Origin: Verrucomicrobiales bacterium
Lineage (GTDB): Bacteria > Verrucomicrobiota > Verrucomicrobiia > Limisphaerales > UBA9464
Assembly: GCA_027488845.1 (NCBI GenBank)
Contig: JAIYBC010000055.1
Coordinates: 141,301-205,300 of the forward strand
Reading direction: 5' to 3'
DNA length: 64,000 bases
Shown here: positions 1 to 13,178 of the stretch, piece by piece
How positions within the stretch are numbered: position 1 is the first letter of the stretch
How the letters are laid out: every line of letters begins with the position of its first letter
Notes under the pieces: generated by a model
Told to the model about the DNA's origin: nothing
Database searches by the model: none
What the model saw: the letters and a program-made list of their open reading frames with translations, nothing else
Position numbers and translations under genes: made by a program

Positions 1-2835
1 GGTGGCGTCCACGCTCGCCGTGGCGAGGATCCGGGAGTCCGGCGAGAACACGGCGGAACGCACCTGGTCGAGGTGTCGGTCCAGTTGCCGCGGCTCACCG
101 CCGCCAATCGGGACCAGCCAAGCCCCGTGTTCCTCCGCGGCGAGCGCCAGCCACCGGTTGTCCGCGCTGAAGGAGGCCTCGGCGACCAAGGTGGCGGGAA
201 TCCGTGTCCGATGCCGGATGCGGCCATCGCGGGTGTCCCAGACCTTCACCCCGCCTTCCGCGTCGACGGCGGCGAAGTGGCGCAGGTCCTGGGAGACCGC
301 CGCCTGCAGGAAGTTCGGCGGCGTGGAGCCGACGGTCTCCAGTTCGAGGATGCGGCTGGTGGCGCCGGCGATCCCACCGGGGATCCATGCGAGAAGCCCG
401 GGCCGTTCCTGGACCAGCCAGTCGCCGTTCCTCCCGATGGCGAGCGGCGTCCCATGGGGTCCGGCGGAAGCGGTTGTCGGTTCGGAGAGGGATTGGATGC
501 GGCTACCCGGGTCGGCTCCGGTTCCGGGAAGCGTCACCAGCAGACTTCCGTCTTCGGAGAAGACCGGCCGCAACGGACTTCGATGCGGCAGCGTCAGGTC
601 GGCCCGGGGCGGTGCGGACGGCCAGCGGAACACGGCCCGGTCCTTGCCGCCGCTGGCGATCTGTCGGCCATCCGGACTGAAGGCCACGCACCACACCTCG
701 CCGCCATGTCCGCGGGCGACTCCGAGGGATTCCCCGCTGCCGGCGTCCCACCAGCGGAGGGTCTGGTCGGAGGACGACGTGACGAGCCGCAATCCGTCCG
801 GGCTGAACGCGGCCTTCCAGGTTGAGAGCGTGTGGCCCGAGAGCAGTCGGGGAGTGTCAGAAGCTTCCCCGAGGTTCCAGAGCCGCACTTCGGGACGCCA
901 GCCGGTGGCCACGAGCCGGTTGCCGTCCGGGGAGAATTCCAGTGACCAGAGCCTTCCCTGCGACTCCAGCGAGCGGATCGTGGAACCGTCGCGGCCGTCG
1001 AGGATGTGGATCACCGTGATGGCGTCGCTCACGGCGACACGGCTTCCGTCGCGGCTCACGGCCACCGTCCGGGAGTCGGGAAGCCTCCTGGCCGGGGCGC
1101 CGGATCCGGGATGCCGGAGCCAGGTGGGTCCGGCCGGGGTCGAGCCCCACGGGAACGGGTTGCCTTCGCAGGTCACCCACGTCGAGGCGTCCGTGGACAT
1201 CGCCGCGGAGTAGCCGGACACTTCCGAAACCACGCGGCCCTCGTCGGCGTTCCAGGTGCGGATCCGACCGTCGACGTGGGCGGCGAGGAACCGGATGCCG
1301 TCCGGGAACCAGGCCAGGCTGCGGGCGCCATTGGTGCCGAGGGACCGCGTGGGGCCGTCGGGCGAAAGCGGCGTCAGGTGCAGGGCGTCGCCGACCGTGC
1401 CGGAACCCACCGACGCCGAGAGCAGCCGGCTGCCGTCGGGCGAGAACGCGACGCCGTTGACGATCCACGGATGCCGGTCGACCGGCGTGCGGGGATCGCC
1501 CTCCGCCATGCGTCGGAGCAGCCTCCAGGCGAAGTCCGGGGAAGGCGCGCGGTGGCGGTCCAGCAGCTCGCGGGCGAAGCCCAAGTCGCCTTCCGTTACC
1601 GACTCGGAGGCGATGTGGAGGTCGGCGGCGTAGAGGTCCAGCCGGTTGGCCCTGGCCTGCGAGAGCGTCACGGCGACGCCGGTCGCAACGGCCGCGGCGA
1701 ATGCCAGCAGGGCGAGGGTGAGGTAGGGGTTGCGACGGGTGTGCCGGAGCAGGGTTTCCGAGAGGGACTCGGGCCGGGCCAGGATCGCGTCGCCCCGGAG
1801 CCAGCGGTCCAGGTCGTCGGCGAACTCCGCCGCGCTCGCATACCGATCCGCGGGTCGTGCCGATAGGCACTTCAGGCAGAGCAGGTCGAGCCGTCGTTCC
1901 GCCCCCGAGGGACGTCGGTCCCGCGGCGGTCCGCGGCGTGAAGGCGGCACGGCGCGTTCCTCCGAGGCGCGGCGCAGCGTCTCCAGCGGTGTGGGTGACG
2001 AGAACGGCGGGCTTCCGCCGAGCAGTTCGTAGAGGACCGCGCCGAGGCCGTAGACGTCGCTGGCGACGGTGGATTCGGCGGCGCCTCCGCGGGCGACCTC
2101 CGGGGCGAGGTAGTCGGGCGTGCCCAGCAGCGCCTGGGTCCGTGTGAGGCCGCTCTCCTCGTCCAGGAGCCGGGCGAGGCCGAAGTCGGCGACATGCGGC
2201 TGCCCGGCGGTGTCGAAGAGGATGTTGGCGGGCTTGATGTCGCGGTGGAGGACGCCGTGTTGGTGGGCGTGATGCACCGCCCGGGCCACGACGGACATCC
2301 AACGCGCCGCGGTCTCCAGACGTTCCTCGGTGCCCTGGGGAGGCAGGCCGGAGATCCGGTCGGCAAGCGTCCCGCCCTCGAGCAGCGGCATCGCCAGGAA
2401 ATGGCGTCCGTCGTCCTCGCCCGCGTCGTGCACGGGGACGATGTGCGGATGTCCGAGCCGGGCGACGGCGCGGGCCTCGGTGTAGAACCGCTGCACCTGC
2501 TCGGGCCGGACCAGGCGGCCGGCGCTGATGAGCTTGAGGGCGATGTCGCGGCCGAGTCCCTCCTGGCGTGCGCGGTAGACGACCCCCATGCCGCCCGCCG
2601 CGATCGGGGCGATCAGCTCGTAGCCACCGATGCGTTCCGGGATCCGTTCGGCGCCGCGGCGGTCCAGCACCTCGGTGTCGCCCGCGAGGTCCAACAGGCA
2701 GGCCGCGCAGTTCCCGTGCAGCCTTCCGCCCGGAAGCGGACGCCGACAGCGGCGACAGGCGGGCGCTGGATGCGGATCCATCCCTTCGTTCAGCAGCGGA
2801 TCCGGCGGAAGGTTACCGCCGTTTTCGGGGTTCAT
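1..2835 (-). CDS. Ser/Thr protein kinase with C-terminal WD40 repeats (partial, runs off left edge)
   Basis: Transmembrane signalling kinase of the PVC type. The 945 codons present start at an ATG that overlaps the sigma-factor stop (ATGA), so the two genes look translationally coupled. Visible in order: a zinc ribbon (Cys27-x2-Cys30 and Cys43-x2-Cys46); a Hanks-type kinase with GGMGVVY glycine loop, HRDIKPAN (catalytic Asp199), DFG (Asp217) and a GTPDYLAPE activation segment; one transmembrane helix; then many WD40-like repeats with 'FSPDGxxL' and 'xVxLWN' signatures reaching the window edge. The kinase core looks catalytically intact. Family knowledge suggests the cytoplasmic kinase answers to, or acts with, the paired sigma factor while the beta-propeller binds an unknown partner. 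The partner and signal are inference; the C-terminus is not in the window. Confidence 0.9.
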   Translation of the reverse strand, partial: MNPENGGNLPPDPLLNEGMDPHPAPACRRCRRPLPGGRLHGNCAACLLDLAGDTEVLDRRGAERIPERIGGYELIAPIAAGGMGVVYRARQEGLGRDIALKLISAGRLVRPEQVQRFYTEARAVARLGHPHIVPVHDAGEDDGRHFLAMPLLEGGTLADRISGLPPQGTEERLETAARWMSVVARAVHHAHQHGVLHRDIKPANILFDTAGQPHVADFGLARLLDEESGLTRTQALLGTPDYLAPEVARGGAAESTVASDVYGLGAVLYELLGGSPPFSSPTPLETLRRASEERAVPPSRRGPPRDRRPSGAERRLDLLCLKCLSARPADRYASAAEFADDLDRWLRGDAILARPESLSETLLRHTRRNPYLTLALLAFAAAVATGVAVTLSQARANRLDLYAADLHIASESVTEGDLGFARELLDRHRAPSPDFAWRLLRRMAEGDPRTPVDRHPWIVNGVAFSPDGSRLLSASVGSGTVGDALHLTPLSPDGPTRSLGTNGARSLAWFPDGIRFLAAHVDGRIRTWNADEGRVVSEVSGYSAAMSTDASTWVTCEGNPFPWGSTPAGPTWLRHPGSGAPARRLPDSRTVAVSRDGSRVAVSDAITVIHILDGRDGSTIRSLESQGRLWSLEFSPDGNRLVATGWRPEVRLWNLGEASDTPRLLSGHTLSTWKAAFSPDGLRLVTSSSDQTLRWWDAGSGESLGVARGHGGEVWCVAFSPDGRQIASGGKDRAVFRWPSAPPRADLTLPHRSPLRPVFSEDGSLLVTLPGTGADPGSRIQSLSEPTTASAGPHGTPLAIGRNGDWLVQERPGLLAWIPGGIAGATSRILELETVGSTPPNFLQAAVSQDLRHFAAVDAEGGVKVWDTRDGRIRHRTRIPATLVAEASFSADNRWLALAAEEHGAWLVPIGGGEPRQLDRHLDQVRSAVFSPDSRILATASVDAT

Positions 2836-3560
2836 CCGCGCAGGACCTCCTGGAGATGCCCCAGTTCCGCGTCGATGGCCTCAGCCCGGTCGTCCACCGT
2901 GCGGCCGATCTCGGCCCGGACGAGTTCGCCGTATCTCCGGCGCATGCGGTGGGCCGCGACCTTGAGGGATCCCTCGGTCATCCCGAGCGGCGGCGCGAGG
3001 TCGGCGAACATCGCGGCGTCGGGATCCCCGGAAAGGTGGGGTCTCAGGGCCTCGAAGAGGGCCCGTTTCCCGGAAGCGCCACATTCGGACTCCAACGCGA
3101 GGAACGCGCCCTCCAGCACGGTCATCGCCCAACGCCGTTCATAGAGGGTTTCCGGCGTGACGGTCTCCGCGCGCTCCAGCCGGTATCGTTCCTCGGCTTC
3201 CAGCGCGTCGAGGGCCAACGGCGTCCGCCCGCCGCCGCGCTTGATGCGGCGCGACCGGTTCCAGTCGTTGGAAAGGAAGTGCCCCAGCGCGGTGAGGAGG
3301 AAGGTCCGGAACCGACCCTTCTCGGGGGAGACCGACCTCAGCCACTCCTTCTCGATCAGCTTCTCGAAGAACGACTGCGTCAGGTCGGCGGACTCCTCCG
3401 GGTCCCGTCCCTGCCTGCGGACATAGGCGTACAGCGGATACCAGTAGCGACGGCACAGCTCCTCGAGGGCCTGCAGGGCCACCGCCTCGTCGCCGCCGCG
3501 GGCGTCGAGGATCAGGCTCCAGCGGGTGGCTGAGAACTCGGGTTTCCGGTGTGTCGGCAT
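2832..3560 (-). CDS. ECF-type RNA polymerase sigma factor
   Basis: 242-residue sigma-70 family protein of the long ECF type common in Verrucomicrobia and Planctomycetes. Region 2 is seen in the 'ATRWSLIL', 'RRYWYPLYAYVRRQG' and 'DLTQSFFEKLI' stretches with the 'SPEKGRFRTFL' core, and region 4 in the C-terminal helix-turn-helix 'LGMTEGSLKVAAHRMRRRY'. It starts 16 bp after the stop of the upstream E1/ketosynthase fusion and its stop overlaps the kinase start, so the three genes probably form one transcript. It should direct polymerase to a dedicated promoter set; the target is unknown. A near twin sits at 9151-9903, also followed by a kinase-WD40 gene. Confidence 0.9.
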   Translation of the reverse strand: MPTHRKPEFSATRWSLILDARGGDEAVALQALEELCRRYWYPLYAYVRRQGRDPEESADLTQSFFEKLIEKEWLRSVSPEKGRFRTFLLTALGHFLSNDWNRSRRIKRGGGRTPLALDALEAEERYRLERAETVTPETLYERRWAMTVLEGAFLALESECGASGKRALFEALRPHLSGDPDAAMFADLAPPLGMTEGSLKVAAHRMRRRYGELVRAEIGRTVDDRAEAIDAELGHLQEVLRG

Positions 3561-3576: not shown

Positions 3577-6500
3577 CTATCGCCCCGGGGCCGCCGCCGG
3601 CTCGAGGACCGCCAAGGCCGCCCCGAAGGTGAAGCCGCCGCCGAAGGCGCAAAGCCCGGCGGTTCCCCGATGTCCCGCGGCGAGCATTTCCGCGAGGGCG
3701 ATCGGCAGCGTGCTCGACGAGGTGTTGCCGTGGTGGGCGACGTTGTTGAAGAGGCGCCCGGGGGCGATGCCGGTCTGACGTTGAACGGCCTGGAGGATCC
3801 TTCCGTTGGCCTGGTGGGGGACGATCCAGTCCAGGCTCTCCATCGGGATCGCGGCTTCGGTGCAGGCCCTCTCCAGGACCGCCGGCATCTGGCGCACCGC
3901 CAACTGGAACACCTTGAGTCCGTCCATCGCCACCGGCGTGCAGGCCGCTCCCGGCGACATGCGGCCCAGGCTCAGTATCGTGCCGTCCTCACCGCGGGCC
4001 CCCAGCACCGGACGACGCAGGCGGATCCACCCCGCCTCCGCGGACGGTCCGGACGCGGCCGCGCCGTGGACCACGGTGGCGGTGGCGGCGTCGCCGAAGA
4101 CGATCGCGGTGTCGAAGTCGAGCGGGTCCACGAAATGGGACATCGCCTCCGTGGTCACCACGAGGATCCGCGATCCCGGCCGCGCCACGCAGGCGTCGAA
4201 CGCCGCCTGCAGCGCATAGAGGTATCCGGAGCAGGCGGCGAAGAGGTCCACCGCCGGGAAATCCGCCGAGGCCGTGGAACCCCCGCCGAGGACCTGTTGC
4301 AGCCGACAGGCAAGGCTCGGGCTGACGGCCAGGGGCGTGGATGTCGAGACGTAGAGGCCGTCGAGGTCCGCCGGGGTCAGTCCCGCGGCGTCCAAGGCCC
4401 TGCGGGCGGCCGCGGTCGCCAAGGTCAATGCGTCCTCGCCGGGACCGCAGTGGAAGCGTTCCACGATTCCGGTCCGCTGTTCGATGTCCCCGGGAGTCCT
4501 TCCCGGGAAACGGGAGACCAGCTCGGCATTCGAGACGCGGTTCGATCCCTGCACGAACACCGGCACGGAAAGGGTTACGGTCCCGGAAGCCGACTCCTGC
4601 GGACCCGTCCGTGATGCGGTGTCGTCCGCGGCGGATCTCCTGGAGGCTGGCGTGCCCCGGGCGCTGCGGGCCAGGTGGAAGCGCGGTTCCCTAGGAATCC
4701 GCCGACCCGATCGCGGCGCCGACTCGAGGCGTATGCGCGCAAGGGGGGAACCCACCCTCAGCCTTTCACCTTCCTCGACGCGGCCGGTCAACACGCCCGC
4801 GACCGGGGAACGCAGGTCGAACGACGCCTTGTCCGCCTCGCATTCCGCCAACAGGTCGCCAGCCTGCACGCGGGACCCCTCGCCGACCTTCCATTCGGTC
4901 ACCGAAACCGACTGGTCCGCGGGACTCGATCCCACGGCCTCCAAAACGTGGAAGCCCTCGTCGACCCGGCCATCCCGAGCCTCCTCCACGGATAGCTCAA
5001 GTCCACACAGGCCGGCGGCCGCCTCGAGGATCCTTCGGACCGAGGGAAGGACCTCGAGCTGGTTGCCGAAATGGCACGGGATGTAGGTGTCGGCCCGGGT
5101 GACGCGGCGGATCTCCACCGGCACGCCGGCCTTCTCCGCCACCGTGGCGGCCACTTCGGCACCGAAGCCGCAGGTGTGGTTGTCCTCGTGCACCACCACC
5201 AGCCGGCGGGACCGTCGCACCGCCTGCAGGACCGCGTTGGAATCCCACGGCGCCAGGGTGCGGAGGTCGAGGACCCCGGCGGCCACGCCCACGTCGGACA
5301 GGTGTTCCGCCGCCCGTCGGCACAGACCCACCGTCGCACCCCAAGACACCAGCGTGAGGTCGTCCCCCTCCATCACCGTGCGCGCGGTACCCGGCACGAC
5401 GAAGGCCGCGGCCGGATCCAACGGCGCCGCCGCCGTCGGATCGTTGAGCAGGACCTTCGGATAGAGGAACAGCGTGGGACGTCCCGAGGCGAAGGCGGCG
5501 TTGAGCAGGCCCGCGGCGTCCGCGGCGTTCGAGGGGAGGAATACGTCCAATCCGGGCACATGGGCGTAGGTGCCCTCGGCGGAGCTGGCATGGAAGGGGC
5601 CGAGGCCCGGTCGATATCCGCCGCAGGGCGAAAGCAGCACCAGCGGCGCCTGCCATTCCCCCCGGGTGCGCCAATGCAGGCTGCCCAGTTCGCTGGCGAT
5701 CTGGTTGTAGGCCAGCGGAAGGAAGTCGGCGAACTGGACGAACCCCACCGGCCGTCCCCCGGCCAACGCGCGGCCGATCCCGGTTCCCACGATGGTGCTC
5801 TCGCTCAAAGGCGCGTTCAGGACCCTTCCCGGAAACCGCGTGCTCAGCCCGCGGGTGAGCCCGAAGACGTCGCCCTTCGGATCCTCGATGTCCTGGCCCG
5901 AAAGGGTCGCCCGCGGATCGCTCGCCAGACGGTGTTCCAAGGCCTCTCGCAGCGCCTCCAGCAGTGTCCGGGGACGTCCGTCCCCGCCCGGCGTGGAGTC
6001 GCCCGCGGGGAATCCTTCCGGCAGCGGGGCACGGGCGTCGAAGTCGGGCAGGGGATCGGTTCCGACCAGGGCCGCCTCCGCCTCGTCTCGCAGGCGCCGA
6101 CGCACCGTTCCCGCGATCCGTTCCAGTTCCGAGGCCGGGACGCCCGTGGACCTGAGATGCGCCTCGAGCCGTGCCAGCGGATCGGCCTCCACCTTCACGG
6201 ACTCGATCTCCGAGGGCGTCCGGTAGACGCGTTCGTCGTCGGCGTTGGTGTGGTGTGTCAGGCGCTCCACCCGCAGCACCACGATCGTCGGGCCTCCGTC
6301 GCGCCTCATCGCGGAGACGATCCCGCCGAACCGGCCGTCGCAGGCGAGCACATCCCGTCCGTCCAGCCGGACCAGCGGCAGGCCGTAGAATCCGTCGGCC
6401 GGGCCTTGGGGAAGGTCGAAGAAGGTGCGCCCGGCGGTGGTGGTGGAGATGGCGTAGCGGTTGTCCTCGACGAGGAACAGCACCCGGAGCCGGTTCCGGA

Positions 6501-7068
6501 CCGCCTCGGCGACGGCCTCCAGGAACTCGCCCTGCTGGGTCGTGCCGTCGCCGACCGAACAGACGGTCACGGTGTCCCGGTCGGGATGACGACGGGCCTC
6601 CTCGAGGGCGACTCCCACGGCCTGGAGCGCGCCGTTGCCGACGGGACCGGGAAGGCTGAGCAGACGCAACGGCGCCGAGGACGGATGCGCGCACATCTGG
6701 CGGCCGCCCGAGGACGATTCCGCGTTGCAGACCAACGCGTCGAAGAACGAGCGCGAGGGAAGTCCCCTTGCGAGCATCAGGGCCTTGTCGCGGTAGTGCA
6801 GGTGCAGCCAGTCGTCGGGACGCAGGTGGGCCGCGAGCGCGGCCGAGGCCTCATGGCCGGCTCCGCCGACATGGAAGAACGCCTCGCCCCGGTGGATGAG
6901 TTCGAGTTCCAGGCGGTCGAGTTCCCGGGCGGTGCGGAGGATCTCCAACAGTTCCAGGGCGCGGGAGTTGGAGCTCGGATGGACGTTGCGGGCGGGAATC
7001 GGAGTCGGAGTTGGGGGATTCAAGGCGGGCGGCAGGCACGGGGATTCCGCATTCTGGGCCGACGGCAT
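3577..7068 (-). CDS. Fusion: 2-oxoacid dehydrogenase E1 alpha + E1 beta + lipoyl domain + FabH-like 3-oxoacyl-ACP synthase III
   Basis: A 1163-residue multidomain enzyme. Residues about 35-345 are E1 alpha, with the thiamine-diphosphate motif GDG at 173-175 closing at Asn203. About 366-690 are E1 beta (transketolase-like pyrimidine and C-terminal domains, with Glu423 where the cofactor-activating Glu is expected). About 706-772 are a lipoyl carrier domain with modifiable Lys747 in 'EADKAS'. A low-complexity linker leads to a KAS III domain, about 828-1160, with the Cys946-His1085-Asn1115 triad. All catalytic residues appear intact. E1 enzymes decarboxylate 2-oxoacids and acylate lipoamide; KAS III condenses an acyl-CoA with malonyl-ACP. 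The fusion suggests delivery of a branched or aromatic acyl starter into lipid or polyketide synthesis (inference). I chose the ATG at 7068 because the longer frame would run into the divergent gene at 7187. No E2 or E3 gene is nearby. Confidence 0.88.
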   Translation of the reverse strand: MPSAQNAESPCLPPALNPPTPTPIPARNVHPSSNSRALELLEILRTARELDRLELELIHRGEAFFHVGGAGHEASAALAAHLRPDDWLHLHYRDKALMLARGLPSRSFFDALVCNAESSSGGRQMCAHPSSAPLRLLSLPGPVGNGALQAVGVALEEARRHPDRDTVTVCSVGDGTTQQGEFLEAVAEAVRNRLRVLFLVEDNRYAISTTTAGRTFFDLPQGPADGFYGLPLVRLDGRDVLACDGRFGGIVSAMRRDGGPTIVVLRVERLTHHTNADDERVYRTPSEIESVKVEADPLARLEAHLRSTGVPASELERIAGTVRRRLRDEAEAALVGTDPLPDFDARAPLPEGFPAGDSTPGGDGRPRTLLEALREALEHRLASDPRATLSGQDIEDPKGDVFGLTRGLSTRFPGRVLNAPLSESTIVGTGIGRALAGGRPVGFVQFADFLPLAYNQIASELGSLHWRTRGEWQAPLVLLSPCGGYRPGLGPFHASSAEGTYAHVPGLDVFLPSNAADAAGLLNAAFASGRPTLFLYPKVLLNDPTAAAPLDPAAAFVVPGTARTVMEGDDLTLVSWGATVGLCRRAAEHLSDVGVAAGVLDLRTLAPWDSNAVLQAVRRSRRLVVVHEDNHTCGFGAEVAATVAEKAGVPVEIRRVTRADTYIPCHFGNQLEVLPSVRRILEAAAGLCGLELSVEEARDGRVDEGFHVLEAVGSSPADQSVSVTEWKVGEGSRVQAGDLLAECEADKASFDLRSPVAGVLTGRVEEGERLRVGSPLARIRLESAPRSGRRIPREPRFHLARSARGTPASRRSAADDTASRTGPQESASGTVTLSVPVFVQGSNRVSNAELVSRFPGRTPGDIEQRTGIVERFHCGPGEDALTLATAAARRALDAAGLTPADLDGLYVSTSTPLAVSPSLACRLQQVLGGGSTASADFPAVDLFAACSGYLYALQAAFDACVARPGSRILVVTTEAMSHFVDPLDFDTAIVFGDAATATVVHGAAASGPSAEAGWIRLRRPVLGARGEDGTILSLGRMSPGAACTPVAMDGLKVFQLAVRQMPAVLERACTEAAIPMESLDWIVPHQANGRILQAVQRQTGIAPGRLFNNVAHHGNTSSSTLPIALAEMLAAGHRGTAGLCAFGGGFTFGAALAVLEPAAAPGR

Positions 7069-7186
7069 GTCGAAGGGGTAGCAAGGGCCACCCGGCACCG
7101 CCAGACTTTGGTGGTCGACGCGCCGGGCGTTGGGGCGCAAGAGCCAGCTTGCCCGGGGTGGTCCCGGCCGCCTTTCATTGGCCCGG

Positions 7187-7897
7187 ATGAACCGCCGCCA
7201 GTTCCTGTCCACCTTCGTCGTCGTCCCGGCCACCGCCGCGGGCGTGCTCGGGTGCCGCCGCAAGCTCCGCCCCGAACTCATCCGAATCGAGGACTACGAG
7301 GACCGCAAGGGCGGCTGGCGTCCGATCCGTGTCGCCTGCGTCGGCGACAGCATCACCTTCGGTGCCGGCGTCGAGGACCGGGAGAAGTTCTGCTACCCGG
7401 CCCAGCTCGCGGAACTGCTCGGCAACCGTTTCGAGGTGCGCAACTTCGGCCGCAGTGGCGCCACGATGTCGTCCACCGGCGACCTGCCGTACGTCTCGAC
7501 GGACGAGTTCAAGAACGCCAACGCCTGGCAGCCCGACGTGATCCTGCTCATGCTCGGCACCAACGACACCAAGCCCCAGAACTGGAAGGGGCCGAAGGCG
7601 TTCGAGCAGTCCACCAAGGATCTCATCGCCGCGTTCCGGGACCTGAAGTCCAAGCCCAAGATCTGGCTCTGCCTCCCGGTCCCGATCTACGGAGACCAAT
7701 GGGGCATCAACGCCCAGGTGCTCGAGGACGGCATCATCCCCGTCCTCATGGAGGTGACCAACTCCAAGAAGATCCCGGTGATCGACCTCAACGACGCCCT
7801 CACCGGGCATCCGGAACTGTTCCCGGACAAGATCCATCCCGACGGCAACGGCGCCGCGCTGATGGCGAGGACCATCTTCCAGGCGTTCCGTCCGTGA
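7187..7897 (+). CDS. SGNH/GDSL hydrolase, exported (Tat and lipobox-like signal)
   Basis: 236-residue secreted esterase-fold protein. The N-terminus carries a twin-arginine 'RRQFL' followed by a hydrophobic stretch ending 'GVLGC', so it may be Tat-exported and lipidated at Cys23. SGNH blocks are clear: GDSIT (nucleophile Ser55), a conserved Gly/Asn region, GTND, and the C-terminal 'DKIH' (Asp214, His217). Such enzymes hydrolyse acyl or acetyl esters, often on polysaccharides; the substrate cannot be read here. The ATG at 7187 was preferred to the upstream 7130 because it begins exactly at the signal peptide. The stop overlaps the GTG start of the following methyltransferase (GTGA), implying coupled translation. 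Confidence 0.86.
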   Translation: MNRRQFLSTFVVVPATAAGVLGCRRKLRPELIRIEDYEDRKGGWRPIRVACVGDSITFGAGVEDREKFCYPAQLAELLGNRFEVRNFGRSGATMSSTGDLPYVSTDEFKNANAWQPDVILLMLGTNDTKPQNWKGPKAFEQSTKDLIAAFRDLKSKPKIWLCLPVPIYGDQWGINAQVLEDGIIPVLMEVTNSKKIPVIDLNDALTGHPELFPDKIHPDGNGAALMARTIFQAFRP

Positions 7898-8991
7898 TCC
7901 CCGCGCAGGTCCAGTCGGGCGGGCCCGGAGCCGTCGGGGAGACCCGGACGCCGACCTCGCCACCCCAGGCGGATCCGGCTCCGTGGTTCGAGATCTTCCG
8001 TGGCAGTTTCGGCACCGAGCTGTTCGTCGCCGCGGTCGCGCACTTCGGCCTGTTCGACCGTCTCGCCACCGGCCCCCGGTCCTTCGGAAGCCTTTCGGAG
8101 GAACTCGGCCTCGCGCCGCGAGCGCTCAACGTCCTCCTGACCGCCGTCCGCGCCATGGGCGCCGTGGCCCGCGATCCGGACGGGAGCTTCCGGCTCACGG
8201 AATCCGCCCGGGAGCAGCTCGTGCGGACCTCGCCCCACTTCATGGGCGACTACTGTGCGCTCGCCGCGGGATCCCCGGGCGTGCTGGAGATGGTGGAACG
8301 GTTGCGCACCAATCGTCCCAAGGGCTCCGACGAGGGCGGCTCCGGGGTGGGATTCATCTACCGGGACGGCCTGAAGTCGGCGATGGACAGCGAGTCCATG
8401 GCGCGGCATTTCACGCTCTCCCTCGCCGGCCGGGCCCGCAACGTGGCGCCGGCCTTGGCGGAACGCCTGCCGATGGCCGGAGCGCAGCGGTTGCTCGATG
8501 TCGGCGGCGGCACGGGCATCTATTCCGTCGCCCTGCTGCGCCGGAATCCGGGATTGCGGGCCGTGGTCTTCGACCGCCCCGAGGTGCTGCGTGTGGCGGC
8601 CGAGTTCGCCGCCGGCTCCGGCGTCGCTGATCGGCTCGAACTCCGGCCCGGCGACTTCTTCACCGACCCGTTCCCCGCCGGGGCGGACGCCATCCTGCTG
8701 TCGAACATCCTCCACGATTGGGATGTGCCCGAATGCCAGGTCCTGTTGCGACGTTGCGCGGAAGCCCTGCCGTCGGGTGGGAGGTTGATCCTGCAGGACG
8801 TCTTCCTCGACGACGACCTGGGTGGCCCGCTGCCGATCGCGCTGTATTCCGCGGCGTTGTTCAGCGTGACCGAAGGGCGGGCCTATTCGGCGTCGGAGTA
8901 TTCCGGGTGGCTTCGGGAAGTCGGACTGCATCCCATCGAGCGCATCCCGACCCTGGCCCATTGCGCCGCCCTCGTCGCGGTGAAGAGGTGA
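7894..8991 (+). CDS. SAM-dependent O-methyltransferase (Methyltransf_2 type)
   Basis: 365-residue class I methyltransferase with the two-part build of plant-type O-methyltransferases such as hydroxyneurosporene (CrtF) or acetylserotonin methyltransferases. Residues about 30-110 form the winged-helix dimerisation domain ('FDRLATGPRSFGSLSEELGL'); the Rossmann domain follows, with SAM motif 'LDVGGGTG' (Asp202) and the 'HDWD' motif whose His274 is in the general-base position. The GTG start is supported by the 4-bp overlap with the preceding stop; the next in-frame ATG falls well inside the dimerisation domain. Substrate unknown: likely a phenolic, polyene or carotenoid hydroxyl. Adjacent partner is an exported SGNH hydrolase, an unusual pairing. 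Confidence 0.83.
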   Translation: MIPAQVQSGGPGAVGETRTPTSPPQADPAPWFEIFRGSFGTELFVAAVAHFGLFDRLATGPRSFGSLSEELGLAPRALNVLLTAVRAMGAVARDPDGSFRLTESAREQLVRTSPHFMGDYCALAAGSPGVLEMVERLRTNRPKGSDEGGSGVGFIYRDGLKSAMDSESMARHFTLSLAGRARNVAPALAERLPMAGAQRLLDVGGGTGIYSVALLRRNPGLRAVVFDRPEVLRVAAEFAAGSGVADRLELRPGDFFTDPFPAGADAILLSNILHDWDVPECQVLLRRCAEALPSGGRLILQDVFLDDDLGGPLPIALYSAALFSVTEGRAYSASEYSGWLREVGLHPIERIPTLAHCAALVAVKR

Positions 8992-9040: not shown

Positions 9041-9150
9041 GGGGCAACGCTCGCTGAAACGGGCCTGTGCGGATCCTTCCAATCGGGGATGGAACGGGTC
9101 AGGCTTGGCCAGCGGTTGAATCCCTCGACGAGCCTTCCTTTCGAAGGCCC

Positions 9151-9903
9151 ATGGACCCAATGGAAACCGGCCCGCATCCTCCTGGAAATCCCCGGGAGTT
9201 CGTCACGACCCACTGGAGTGTCGTCGTCCATGCCGCGGATCCCGGCTCGCCTCGGTCGGCTGCGGCCCTGGAGCGTCTTTGCCGCGAATACTGGTTCCCC
9301 CTGTATGCCTTCGTCCGTCGGACCGGACTGCGACCGGAAGACGCTGCGGACCTGACCCAGGAGTTCTTCTCCCGGCTTCTGTCCGGAGGCGGGCTGGCGA
9401 CGGTTTCGCCCGAGAAGGGCCGGTTCCGGTCGTTTCTCATCGCATCGATCCGGAACCTGCTCTCCAACGAACGCGAACGGGCCCAATGCCTCAAGCGTGG
9501 TGGAGGTGTGCGGGCCTTCTCGATCGACGAAGCCGAGGCGGAAGGACGGTACCTGACGGAAGGCGTCGACGGATGCAGTCCCGACCTGCTCTTCGATCGC
9601 CATTGGGCGGAGTCGATCATCGCCCGGTCCCTTGCGCAGCTGAGGCGGGATTGCGACGGCGAGGACGGTTTGCGGCGCTTCGACGAGGTGAGGACGTTCC
9701 TCCTCGGGGAAAGGACGGAGGACACGGTCGCGGCGGCCGCGGCCCGCCTCGACATGAGCCTCCCTGCGACCAAGGCGCTGATCCACCGGCTGCGTCGCCG
9801 GTTTGCGGAACTCGTCCGCAACGAGGTGTCCCAGACCATGGATTCCCCGACATCGAGCGAGATCGACCGTGAAATCCGGGAGCTGTTCTCGGCGTTCGGC
9901 TGA
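9151..9903 (+). CDS. ECF-type RNA polymerase sigma factor (second copy)
   Basis: 250 residues from the ATG at 9151 ('MDPMETG'); 9160 is an equally possible start and an upstream ATG at 9067 gives an unlikely leader. Paralogue of the sigma factor at 2832-3560: same 'TTHWSVV', 'CREYWFPLYAFVRRTG', 'DLTQEFFSRLL' and 'SPEKGRFRSFL' region-2 landmarks, and a region-4 helix-turn-helix 'LDMSLPATKALIHRLRRRF'. It is followed 77 bp later by its own kinase-WD40 gene, repeating the arrangement at the left edge. Expected to recruit RNA polymerase to specific promoters, probably controlled by the partner kinase (inferred from genomic pairing). Confidence 0.88.
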   Translation: MDPMETGPHPPGNPREFVTTHWSVVVHAADPGSPRSAAALERLCREYWFPLYAFVRRTGLRPEDAADLTQEFFSRLLSGGGLATVSPEKGRFRSFLIASIRNLLSNERERAQCLKRGGGVRAFSIDEAEAEGRYLTEGVDGCSPDLLFDRHWAESIIARSLAQLRRDCDGEDGLRRFDEVRTFLLGERTEDTVAAAAARLDMSLPATKALIHRLRRRFAELVRNEVSQTMDSPTSSEIDREIRELFSAFG

Positions 9904-9980: not shown

Positions 9981-12900
9981 ATGACACCGGACTCCACCAA
10001 GTGCCCCGACTGCGGCCGGTTCCTGTCCACCTCCGCGTCGGAGGGATTGTGTCCACGATGCCTCTGGGAATCGCTGCTCGCGGGCGCGGAGGAGGCATCG
10101 GAAACGACGGAAGCGGCCTTGTCTCCGGGATCGGGTCTCGCGGACTACGAGGTGCTGGGGGAAATCGCCCGAGGTGGGATGGGTGTGGTGTACCGGGCGC
10201 GTCAACGGAGCCTGAACCGCGAGGTGGCACTCAAGATGGTCCTCCGGACCCGGTTGCCCGGGGAGGCTCCCATGCGGCGATTCCGGGCCGAGGCGGAGGC
10301 GGTCGCCGGATTGGAACACCGGCATGTGATCCCGATCCACGATGTCGGCGAGGACCAGGGGCGCCCGTTCTTCACCATGAAGCTGGTTCCGGGTGGAAGC
10401 CTGGCCGACCAGCTCGCGGACCGGCGCGCCGCCGGCAGGGGTTTCGAACCCGGCAGGGCTGCGGTCCTGATCTCCAAGGTGGCGCGGGCGGTCCACCACG
10501 CGCACCAGCGCGGCATCCTCCATCGGGACCTCAAGCCGGCCAACATCCTGATGGACGAGGACGGCGAGCCGTTGGTGTCCGACTTCGGGCTGGCCTTGCC
10601 CCTGGAGCCCGACCACCGCCTCACCCTCACCGGAGCCCTCGTGGGAACCCCGGCCTATCTGGCGCCGGAACAGGTGGAAAACGCCGAACGCCTGTCCACC
10701 GCGGTGGACGTCTACAGCCTCGGCGCGATCCTCTTCGAGCTGCTCTCCGGTTCCCCGCCGTTCTCGGGCCAGGGACTCCTTGAGGTGCTGCGCAAGGTGA
10801 CCCAGGAGGAACCCCGTCTCGATTGCGGGGACCGCGATCTCGAGACGATCTGCCTCAAGTGCCTCCGCAAGGAACCGGAAGGCCGGTACGCGTCGGCGGA
10901 GGCCCTGGCCGACGACCTCGACCGTTGGTCGCGCCATGAGCCCGTCCTCGCGCGACCCAGCAGCGGACCGGAGCGGCTGCGAAAATGGGCGCGTCGCAAT
11001 CCCGCCGCCGCACTGGGCCTTGGACTGGGTGTGCTCGCCGTCACGACGATCCTGGCCGTGCTCGCCATGGCCAACCGCGAGGTGGGCCTGCAACGGAACA
11101 CGGCCCGTCTGGAGGCGGGGAAAGCCCGGGCCGCGGCCGCACTTGCGGAACGGCTCCGGAGCGAGACCCGCCGTCAGCTCTACGCCGCGGACCTCCTTGT
11201 CGCGCAGCGATCCCTCGACGAAGGGAACCTCAAGCTGGCCCGCCGCATCGTGGAGTCCTACAGGCCCTCCACCAACCGGTTGGACGAAGGGACGGTGACG
11301 GAACACGAGGACCTCCGAGGCTTCGAATGGCGGCTCATCTGGAAGCGTTGCCAAGGCGATCCCCACACGCTCTTCCACCGCTTCCCGGATCCCGTCCAGT
11401 CGGTGACGCTTTCGGGCGACGGCCGACGTCTGGCCGTGGGCGGGCTCTCAGGACGGGTCTCGGTGTGGGACTTCCCCTCGCGTACGCAACTCTCCAGCTG
11501 GACCGTCTCGCAGGCTGCCGTCGAGAAGGTCAGCCTGACCCATTCGGGCGACCTGCTCGCCACCGCCGACGCCGACGGACGTACCCGCATCTGGGACACC
11601 GCGGCCTCGGCCGAGGTCTGGAGCCACCAGGGCCGGAATCCCCGGGGTGTCCAGATTTCGTCCGATGGACGATCCATCGGCGTCACCGAGGCGATTTCGA
11701 CCCGGGAAGGGCTGGTGTCGTGGGCCCGCGTGCTCGAATGGCGGACCGGAAGGGAACGACTCCGGTTGGGCCCCATCGCCGAGTTCGAATCGTTCACCCC
11801 GGATGGCACGGGCGCCCTGGTCTCCCGTCATCGCGACATCGGCACCGAATGGTGGGAACTCGACCGGGACCGTCGGGTCCGCGTGGTCCCCGAGAACAAC
11901 GGATGCCTGGCCGTTTCCGGCGACGGCCGGTGGTTCGCCTCCTCGGGCATGGAGAAGGGGGTTCTCCTCGGTTCCCTTGTCCCAGACCTCAATTCCGCAT
12001 GGCTGAAGATGAAGGCCTCCAGCAGCGAGTCGCTGGCGTTCTCGCCGGATGGGCACTGGCTCGCGAAGTCGGGACAGGACCAAACCCTCCAGGTTTGGAA
12101 TCTCCGGGAAGGCCGCATGGAACGTCGACTGGTGGGACACACCGACTCGGTGACCTCCGTCGCGTTCTCTCCCGACGGGCGATGGTTGGTGAGCGGTGGA
12201 AAGGATCGGGAGGTCCTGCTCTGGCCGATTCCGTTCACCCAGGATGGGATGGTCATCACCAACATCTGGCCGCCGTACGCCGTGGATGCCGGTGGCTCTC
12301 TGCTTGCCGCCCAAGAGGAACCCGTTCGAAGGATGCGGAAGAATGGACGCATCTGGGGACTCAATCCCGGGAAGCCTCCGCTTTCCGGGTTTCCAACCGG
12401 CGGACTGGTTCCTGTCGGCTTCCGCGGCGATGGAACGGAACTGTGGTGCGTGGGACGGGGCGACGACGGGGGAAGTCTTAGGCTCGTGAGTTGGGATCCG
12501 ACCCGCCCGGATCCATTGGACCGGACCTTGGTGCTGCCTGTCGGACAAACGGATGTCTTTGCCGCCACCGCCTTGGATCCTTTGGGCACAAAGCTTGCGG
12601 TGTGGAATCATGTCCATCCCGACATCGAGCTCTTCGATCTCACCAGGGGAGCGCGTATCGGCCGTTTTCGGACTCCCGACGGTTCCCCTCCCGGGGAACC
12701 GACCGTCTTCCATCCAAGCGGACGGAAACTGCTGAGCATCGTGAGGCCGAATGGCCTTTGGCTCTGGGACCTTGAGAATCCGGAACGCAGTGTCCGAGGC
12801 AAGGTGGACACCCTCTCGATCGGGAGTCCGGTTTTCTCGCCGGAAGGAGACACGGTCGTGGTTCCTTGCGCGGACCATGGTATCCGGATCCTTGAAACTT

Positions 12901-13178
12901 CGTCGTTGGCCGAGAAGGGGATCCTCCTCGGCCACCAGCATGCGGTCGACGCGGTCGCGTTTTCGTCGGACGGCCGGACGCTCGCGGCCTGCTCGAGCGC
13001 GGGCGAGGTGAAGCTCTGGAGTTGGCCCGCCCGCCGGGAAGCCGCGACAGTGGTCGGCGGCGGCGTGTACGCGTTCGTGCGTTTCGCAGAGAACGACAAC
13101 ACGCTGGTGCTGGGCGGGTGGGGTGCCGCCTTGGTGATCCGGATTCCGCCCATGGAAGCCGCCACCCCCTTGGAATAG
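9981..13178 (+). CDS. Ser/Thr protein kinase with C-terminal WD40 repeats
   Basis: 1065 residues, complete. A zinc ribbon (Cys8-x2-Cys11, Cys24-x2-Cys27) precedes a Hanks-type kinase at about 56-315 with glycine loop 'GGMGVVY', Lys85, HRDLKPAN (Asp183), DFG 201-203 and 'GTPAYLAPE'. A single transmembrane helix at about 341-363 is followed by WD40-type repeats to the end, with clear blades such as 'SVTSVAFSPDGRWLVSGG' and 'AVDAVAFSSDGRTLAACS'. All catalytic residues are present. Topology would put the kinase in the cytoplasm and the propeller across the membrane. Paralogous to the partial kinase at 1-2835; both follow an ECF sigma gene, so sigma-kinase partnership is likely but unproven. Confidence 0.92.
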   Translation: MTPDSTKCPDCGRFLSTSASEGLCPRCLWESLLAGAEEASETTEAALSPGSGLADYEVLGEIARGGMGVVYRARQRSLNREVALKMVLRTRLPGEAPMRRFRAEAEAVAGLEHRHVIPIHDVGEDQGRPFFTMKLVPGGSLADQLADRRAAGRGFEPGRAAVLISKVARAVHHAHQRGILHRDLKPANILMDEDGEPLVSDFGLALPLEPDHRLTLTGALVGTPAYLAPEQVENAERLSTAVDVYSLGAILFELLSGSPPFSGQGLLEVLRKVTQEEPRLDCGDRDLETICLKCLRKEPEGRYASAEALADDLDRWSRHEPVLARPSSGPERLRKWARRNPAAALGLGLGVLAVTTILAVLAMANREVGLQRNTARLEAGKARAAAALAERLRSETRRQLYAADLLVAQRSLDEGNLKLARRIVESYRPSTNRLDEGTVTEHEDLRGFEWRLIWKRCQGDPHTLFHRFPDPVQSVTLSGDGRRLAVGGLSGRVSVWDFPSRTQLSSWTVSQAAVEKVSLTHSGDLLATADADGRTRIWDTAASAEVWSHQGRNPRGVQISSDGRSIGVTEAISTREGLVSWARVLEWRTGRERLRLGPIAEFESFTPDGTGALVSRHRDIGTEWWELDRDRRVRVVPENNGCLAVSGDGRWFASSGMEKGVLLGSLVPDLNSAWLKMKASSSESLAFSPDGHWLAKSGQDQTLQVWNLREGRMERRLVGHTDSVTSVAFSPDGRWLVSGGKDREVLLWPIPFTQDGMVITNIWPPYAVDAGGSLLAAQEEPVRRMRKNGRIWGLNPGKPPLSGFPTGGLVPVGFRGDGTELWCVGRGDDGGSLRLVSWDPTRPDPLDRTLVLPVGQTDVFAATALDPLGTKLAVWNHVHPDIELFDLTRGARIGRFRTPDGSPPGEPTVFHPSGRKLLSIVRPNGLWLWDLENPERSVRGKVDTLSIGSPVFSPEGDTVVVPCADHGIRILETSSLAEKGILLGHQHAVDAVAFSSDGRTLAACSSAGEVKLWSWPARREAATVVGGGVYAFVRFAENDNTLVLGGWGAALVIRIPPMEAATPLE

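Follow-up and report, generated by a model that had tools for sequence, protein, structure and literature searches.

A single-chain E1–lipoyl–ketoacyl synthase III protein of Verrucomicrobiota is a candidate CoA-independent starter enzyme for branched-chain fatty acids

Why should a bacterium carry a 2-oxoacid dehydrogenase E1, a lipoyl carrier and a fatty-acid condensing enzyme in one polypeptide? The question is raised by a gene in a 64,000 nt stretch of a Verrucomicrobiales genome (assembly GCA_027488845.1, contig JAIYBC010000055.1, positions 141,301 to 205,300; hereafter the window). The gene (3577..7068, minus strand) is defined by an open reading frame (ORF) and by full-length homologues, and encodes a fusion protein of 1163 residues in which E1 alpha-like and E1 beta-like parts are followed by a lipoyl domain and a 3-ketoacyl-acyl carrier protein (ACP) synthase III (KASIII). 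The answer considered likely, with moderate confidence and from comparison of sequences, is that the fusion is a coenzyme A (CoA)-independent, lipoyl-primed, one-protein starter enzyme for branched-chain fatty acids, the product probably being branched membrane lipids.

The ORF runs from an ATG at 7068 to a stop codon at 3577-3579. ATG 7068 is a provisional start, because the ORF list begins the frame upstream at 7281 (1234 residues). Six Pfam domains were found, all exceeding their curated cut-offs (further matches were taken at E ≤ 0.01), and they bear out the four-part reading (E1 alpha, E1 beta, lipoyl, KASIII) of a first-pass annotation made without database searches. All of the features described here lie on the minus strand. 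An E1 alpha-like thiamine diphosphate (ThDP) domain (PF00676, E1_dh; residues 47–332, 6073..6930; E = 3.8e-38) is followed by an E1 beta-like pyrimidine-binding domain (PF02779, Transket_pyr; residues 370–542, 5443..5961) and the E1 beta C-terminal domain (PF02780, Transketolase_C; residues 560–667, 5068..5391). Next come a lipoyl domain (PF00364, Biotin_lipoyl; residues 721–779, 4732..4908) with the motif EADKA, a linker of about 54 residues that is variable in the alignment (4555..4716), and the FabH-like KASIII domain (residues 843–1153, 3610..4542), which is recognised by NCBIfam model NF006829 (6.6e-69) and by the Pfam families ACP_syn_III (residues 941–1004) and ACP_syn_III_C (residues 1070–1152). 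The NF006829 (beta-ketoacyl-ACP synthase 3) score of the window protein is 232 bits, below the 249-bit cut-off; the Pontiella homologue scores 266 bits against the NCBIfam KASIII model, above it. At the same Pfam threshold, the window protein has no match to the E2 catalytic domain (PF00198), the place of which is occupied by KASIII, or to the E3_binding (subunit-binding) domain.

Of the 288 genomes searched in the phylum, 27, counting that of the window, have the fusion at full length, and two more have it split between contigs. When named genome contigs were scanned, the best 80 of 235 relatives were kept, and 79 of these cover most of the protein; in the other (L052) a contig end truncates it at residue 653. 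These best 80 of 235 are titled Verrucomicrobia, Kiritimatiellae, Lentisphaerales, Planctomycetes, Spirochaetes and others, and include metagenome-assembled genomes (MAGs) titled Beta- and Deltaproteobacteria, although MAG titles may be wrong. Matches were found in 6 of 198 Spirochaetota genomes and full-length matches in 2 of 149 Planctomycetota genomes, the seed genome being counted in each case; two more Planctomycetota genomes match in the E1 part only, and an E1-part match from this phylum (L167), read by eye, ends in an E2. The architecture, expected as a trait of the Planctomycetes–Verrucomicrobia–Chlamydiae group, occurs in Verrucomicrobiota and Planctomycetota, and also in Spirochaetota and in MAGs titled Proteobacteria. 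One family (f25) holds seven of the fusion genomes and includes a locus titled Pontiellaceae (L096). Two contigs titled Akkermansia muciniphila (L052, L066) also carry the fusion, one of them 91% identical to that of the window, but these titles seem doubtful. No relative was confirmed in a scan of viral contigs, and a PHROGs search gave one match, of unknown function.

In a draft genome of 69 contigs, such as that of the window, separate genes might have been joined by an assembly or sequencing artefact. This explanation is refuted, because the fusion recurs in 27 genomes of the phylum, including one assembled as a single contig (G081), and also at named loci from several phyla; an artefact is now scarcely conceivable, and the protein shows no frameshift or false join, which the first-pass annotation had listed as a possible refutation. 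A literature search, which left most subscription papers outside its reach, found no description of an E1–lipoyl–KASIII architecture. The fusion is a real, widespread enzyme architecture, undescribed within the literature searched, and several sequence tests support a coherent mechanism for it.

Conservation was assessed in 64 distinct fusions, i.e., the 69 rows of two alignments minus five duplicates of the same locus. Alignment A1 combines the window protein with 23 of the 26 other full-length matches (L006, L015 and L026, three of the 27, were omitted from the alignments, stop codons interrupting their aligned stretch), and alignment A2 combines it with 45 of the 80 named loci. Invariant in 64/64 are the putative lipoyl acceptor Lys747 (4828-4830) and nearby Glu744, the Cys–His–Asn (CHN) triad of KASIII (Cys946, 4231-4233; His1085, 3814-3816; Asn1115, 3724-3726), Glu423 (5800-5802), His273 (6250-6252) and His493 (5590-5592) of the E1 part, and Asn1088 and Arg1090. 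The lipoyl lysine and the triad had been named correctly from the window alone, and neither they nor the E1 residues have been lost in the homologues aligned. Judged by motif, His493, His273 and Glu423 would correspond to H128-beta, H271-alpha and E59-beta, of which the two histidines act in lipoyl acetylation and the glutamate in ThDP activation (PMC2663715). His273 would then be the E1-alpha histidine assisting lipoyl acylation, in which His493 would also act, and Glu423 the residue of ThDP activation.

If the KASIII domain receives its acyl group from something other than acyl-CoA, then its CoA-binding residues might be expected to differ from those of FabH. FabH sandwiches the CoA adenine between Trp32 and Arg151 and grips the pantetheine arm with Arg36 (PMC4606726). 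Not one of the 64 fusions has Trp at the first position, where Asp, Ala, Glu, Gly or Lys stands instead (Asp861 in the window protein, 4486..4488), and none has Arg at the second, which is Phe, Pro or Gln in 56/64 (Phe985, 4114..4116). Stand-alone FabHs of fusion genomes, in contrast, have both Trp and Arg in 20/20 cases, the sample being one protein from each of 20 genomes, those fetched from 26 stand-alone best matches. Arg249 of FabH is an ACP-docking residue, and its equivalent, Arg1090, is kept in all of the fusions. The loss of the adenine clamp fits a donor other than acyl-CoA, without proving it. Divergent KASIII-superfamily proteins in open frames of about 370–500 residues (L169, 4231-5394; L181-L188) have kept the CHN triad but have neither of the equivalents of Trp32 and Arg151.

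A second single-chain group in the phylum (L031, L141-L152) has the order E1alpha–E1beta–lipoyl–E2, i.e., the same E1 and lipoyl front, but ends in an E2 acyltransferase, which moves the acyl group to CoA, where the fusion ends in KASIII. E2 ends were sought in 13 of its proteins, not in every member, and were found in 13/13, by Pfam (PF00198) in L031 and by C-terminal motif in the 12 others. The usual E2 motif is HxxxDG; that of the 13 proteins is DHR/K..NG, with Asn at the Asp position. Proteins of this architecture, among which L167 of Planctomycetota is also counted, are 35–39% identical to the window protein, and 41–42% over the E1 part. In a tree of the E1 region, the KASIII-ended clade has a support of 99, the E2-ended clade 100, and their pairing as sisters 95 (Shimodaira–Hasegawa-like approximate likelihood ratio test, SH-aLRT); this was a quick tree of 41 rows, including every second A2 row (23 of 46), in which few outside proteins were sampled and two outside branches are long. 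KASIII stands where the sister family has E2, so that the two families differ in the segment expected to transfer the acyl group to CoA.

A mechanism can be proposed from these features. In the E1 half, a branched-chain 2-oxo acid would be decarboxylated with the help of ThDP, and a lipoyl group carried on Lys747 would be reductively acylated. The acyl-dihydrolipoyl arm would then swing over the flexible linker and acylate Cys946 of KASIII, at the point where an E2 would move the acyl group to CoA, after which condensation of this group with malonyl-ACP by KASIII would yield a branched 3-oxoacyl-ACP. Reoxidation of the dihydrolipoyl arm would fall to the dihydrolipoamide dehydrogenase (E3) of the cell. 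Starters derived from amino acids would thereby reach the fatty-acid cycle with no pool of free acyl-CoA in between. The window's genome carries one E2 gene with an adjacent E3 gene, and LipA. Both E1 (alpha-beta) and KASIII work as two-fold dimers, so that joining them is geometrically simple. A direct hand-over from 2-oxoacid through E1 and lipoyl to KASIII, already suggested in the first-pass annotation, agrees with the conserved residues, the lost clamp and the E2-ended sister family.

In the textbook account, branched fatty acids are initiated from free acyl-CoA. The balance tips, if narrowly, towards the fusion representing a new initiation route, in which a condensing enzyme is primed by acyl-dihydrolipoyl, KASIII replaces E2, and the specificity of E1, not the acyl-CoA pool, chooses the starter. 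With the branched-chain 2-oxoacid dehydrogenase complex (E1, E2, E3) the fusion shares a ThDP-dependent E1 with the Glu and two His residues, a lipoyl arm and a presumed need for E3, but it differs in having no E2 catalytic or subunit-binding match and in being a single chain with a condensing enzyme. With FabH (beta-ketoacyl-ACP synthase III) it shares the CHN triad and the Arg249 equivalent, but both of the residues that stack the CoA adenine are gone, and it is joined to its own acyl source. E2 and KASIII parts have also been put to new use in handling starters in the tetronate-type E2-like acyltransferases and the KASIII acyltransferases, which are not known to form an E1–lipoyl–KASIII chain. 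The usual route with separate proteins is the one described in a paper on Akkermansia. If the proposal is true, lipid synthesis would have a separate CoA-free entrance, through which the acyl group passes directly from lipoyl to the condensing cysteine. This would account for the way in which starter units could be set in some Verrucomicrobiota, Planctomycetota and Spirochaetota, and a single gene would become available as a tool for producing defined iso fatty acids. Whether a KASIII can accept acyl-lipoyl becomes a testable question.

The evidence on E1 specificity leans towards branched-chain 2-oxo acids; the first-pass annotation had proposed no particular substrate. The best PDB match for both E1 halves is a Thermus 2-oxoacid dehydrogenase (alpha chain 1um9_A), the structure paper of which is titled branched-chain, according to the reference list of PMC2663715. 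For E1 alpha, the scores are 127 bits for Thermus, 85 for human branched-chain, 79 for human pyruvate and 59 for P. putida branched-chain E1 (last of 28). For E1 beta, Thermus is followed in order by 1ik6 (titled pyruvate dehydrogenase), the P. putida and human branched-chain enzymes, and bacterial and human pyruvate E1. Since these rankings mix branched-chain and pyruvate enzymes, they indicate a lean, not a proof.

Even-chain iso fatty acids start from isobutyryl. Genome G035 was identified as Pontiella agarivorans NLcol2 (genome sizes 4.4 and 4.44 Mb). Its single E1_dh match is the fusion, and its single E2 match adjoins an aceE gene (TIGR00759); because its only E2 is in this position, the draft genome, which is 95% complete, yielded no conventional branched-chain complex. 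The major fatty acids of P. agarivorans, grown on galactose with nitrogen gas, are reported, in order, as C18:0, i-C12:0, i-C18:0 and i-C14:0. If KASIII is primed by acyl-dihydrolipoyl, these even-chain iso acids would be an example of a starter chosen by E1. Pontiella desulfatans, P. sulfatireligans and Kiritimatiella, whether or not they carry the fusion, also make i-C14:0 and i-C18:0. The single-contig genome (G081; 3,882,676 bases) is tentatively Tichowtungia aerotolerans, for which 3.88 Mb and C18:0, i-C12:0, i-C18:0 and i-C16:0 are reported; G081 also has other E1_dh and E2 genes. On fatty acids of other cultured carriers, the literature gave little beyond a spirochaete.

Several observations weigh against a lipoyl-primed starter enzyme. 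Searches for FabH, E1_dh and E2 covered 26 of the 27 fusion genomes (G245 was left out), and a stand-alone FabH exists besides the fusion in 26/26, including one in the window's genome. The fusion is therefore not the sole initiator, and the idea that it replaces FabH was rejected. Other E1_dh matches occur in 23/26, several of these genomes having conventional E1 alpha/beta gene pairs; the single one in the window's genome is a part-length match to a transketolase-like protein. The fusion is the sole E1_dh match in just 3/26 (G035, G087 and G032), and its being generally the only E1 was likewise rejected. Clamp loss is not diagnostic alone, because among 21 other, mostly divergent KASIII-superfamily proteins of the fusion genomes two have both residues, four Arg only and 15 neither. 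Clustering of neighbourhoods found no conserved operon tying the fusion gene to fatty-acid genes. The spirochaete carrier (G428) is presumably Spirochaeta africana. This species is reported, by implication, with iso-C15:0, so that starter specificity may differ between lineages. For P. agarivorans, absence from a genome that is an incomplete draft is not proof, and a ferredoxin-dependent 2-oxoisovalerate oxidoreductase, if present, could supply isobutyryl-CoA in Pontiella.

The last point leads to an alternative in which the fusion acts on pyruvate or some other 2-oxo acid, and branched starters are supplied by 2-oxoisovalerate:ferredoxin oxidoreductase together with FabH, or by a conventional complex where there is one. 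Kiritimatiella and the Pontiella strains live anaerobically, conventional E1 pairs exist in several fusion genomes, and the E1 parts of the fusion do match pyruvate-dehydrogenase NCBIfam models, although all of these matches are below cut-off. The closest PDB chains of both E1 halves are nevertheless those of the Thermus branched-chain enzyme, most but not all of the next ones are also branched-chain, and P. agarivorans already has an AceE pyruvate dehydrogenase; this alternative is held to be quite unlikely. Still less probable is that the fusion tethers ordinary chemistry, with KASIII taking acyl-CoA, a free-standing E2 accepting the acyl group from the E1–lipoyl part, and the single chain doing no more than co-localise the steps. 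At least one E2 was found in 26/26 of the genomes searched, and residues near the pantetheine arm are kept, i.e., Arg865 (the Arg36 equivalent, 56/64) and the equivalent of Asn247 (64/64). Against this reading stand the loss of the adenine clamp in 64/64, the lack of a subunit-binding match, an only E2 in P. agarivorans that adjoins aceE, and a sister family with an E2 domain at the same position.

Somewhat easier to entertain, though still rather unlikely, is a product other than membrane branched-chain fatty acids, such as a 3-oxoacyl unit from which a secondary lipid or pigment is begun, or acyl transfer without condensation. Genes for a GDSL-like hydrolase and an O-methyltransferase adjoin the fusion in the window, neighbourhoods are not conserved, and the stand-alone FabH of 26/26 genomes searched could be read in the same way. 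Acyl-transfer KASIIIs change the condensing Asn, whereas it is kept in 64/64 fusions; the stand-alone placement of the gene across phyla suits a housekeeping role, and the fatty-acid profile of P. agarivorans fits branched membrane fatty acids. A dialkylresorcinol or other secondary metabolite as the product was rejected, having no support from the literature search or from neighbourhood clustering.

The fusion gene mostly stands alone, because no neighbour is widely conserved. The largest neighbourhood clusters look, by position or frame, like the fusion gene itself with its shadow frames, and the largest clear cluster of outside neighbours spans 10 of 81 loci. A divergent ORF of about 905–923 residues, the cluster of which takes in 10 loci, lies beside the fusion in Spirochaete loci L060, L071, L081, L082, L093, L095 and L103. 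Downstream of the fusion gene in the window, after 16 bases, comes a sigma-factor-like gene, and in a 90% identical relative (L033) the fusion is followed by one equal in length. The GDSL-like hydrolase (7130-7897, plus strand) and O-methyltransferase (about 7957-8991, plus strand) genes are divergent from the fusion gene. Two modules flank the fusion, with sigma-70 region 2-like genes at 2832-3560 (minus strand; just below the Pfam cut-off) and 9067-9903 (plus strand). The plus-side one is followed at 9981-13178 (plus strand) by a gene that joins a protein kinase to WD40 repeats; the minus-side partner of this gene, below 2832, is similar by eye only.

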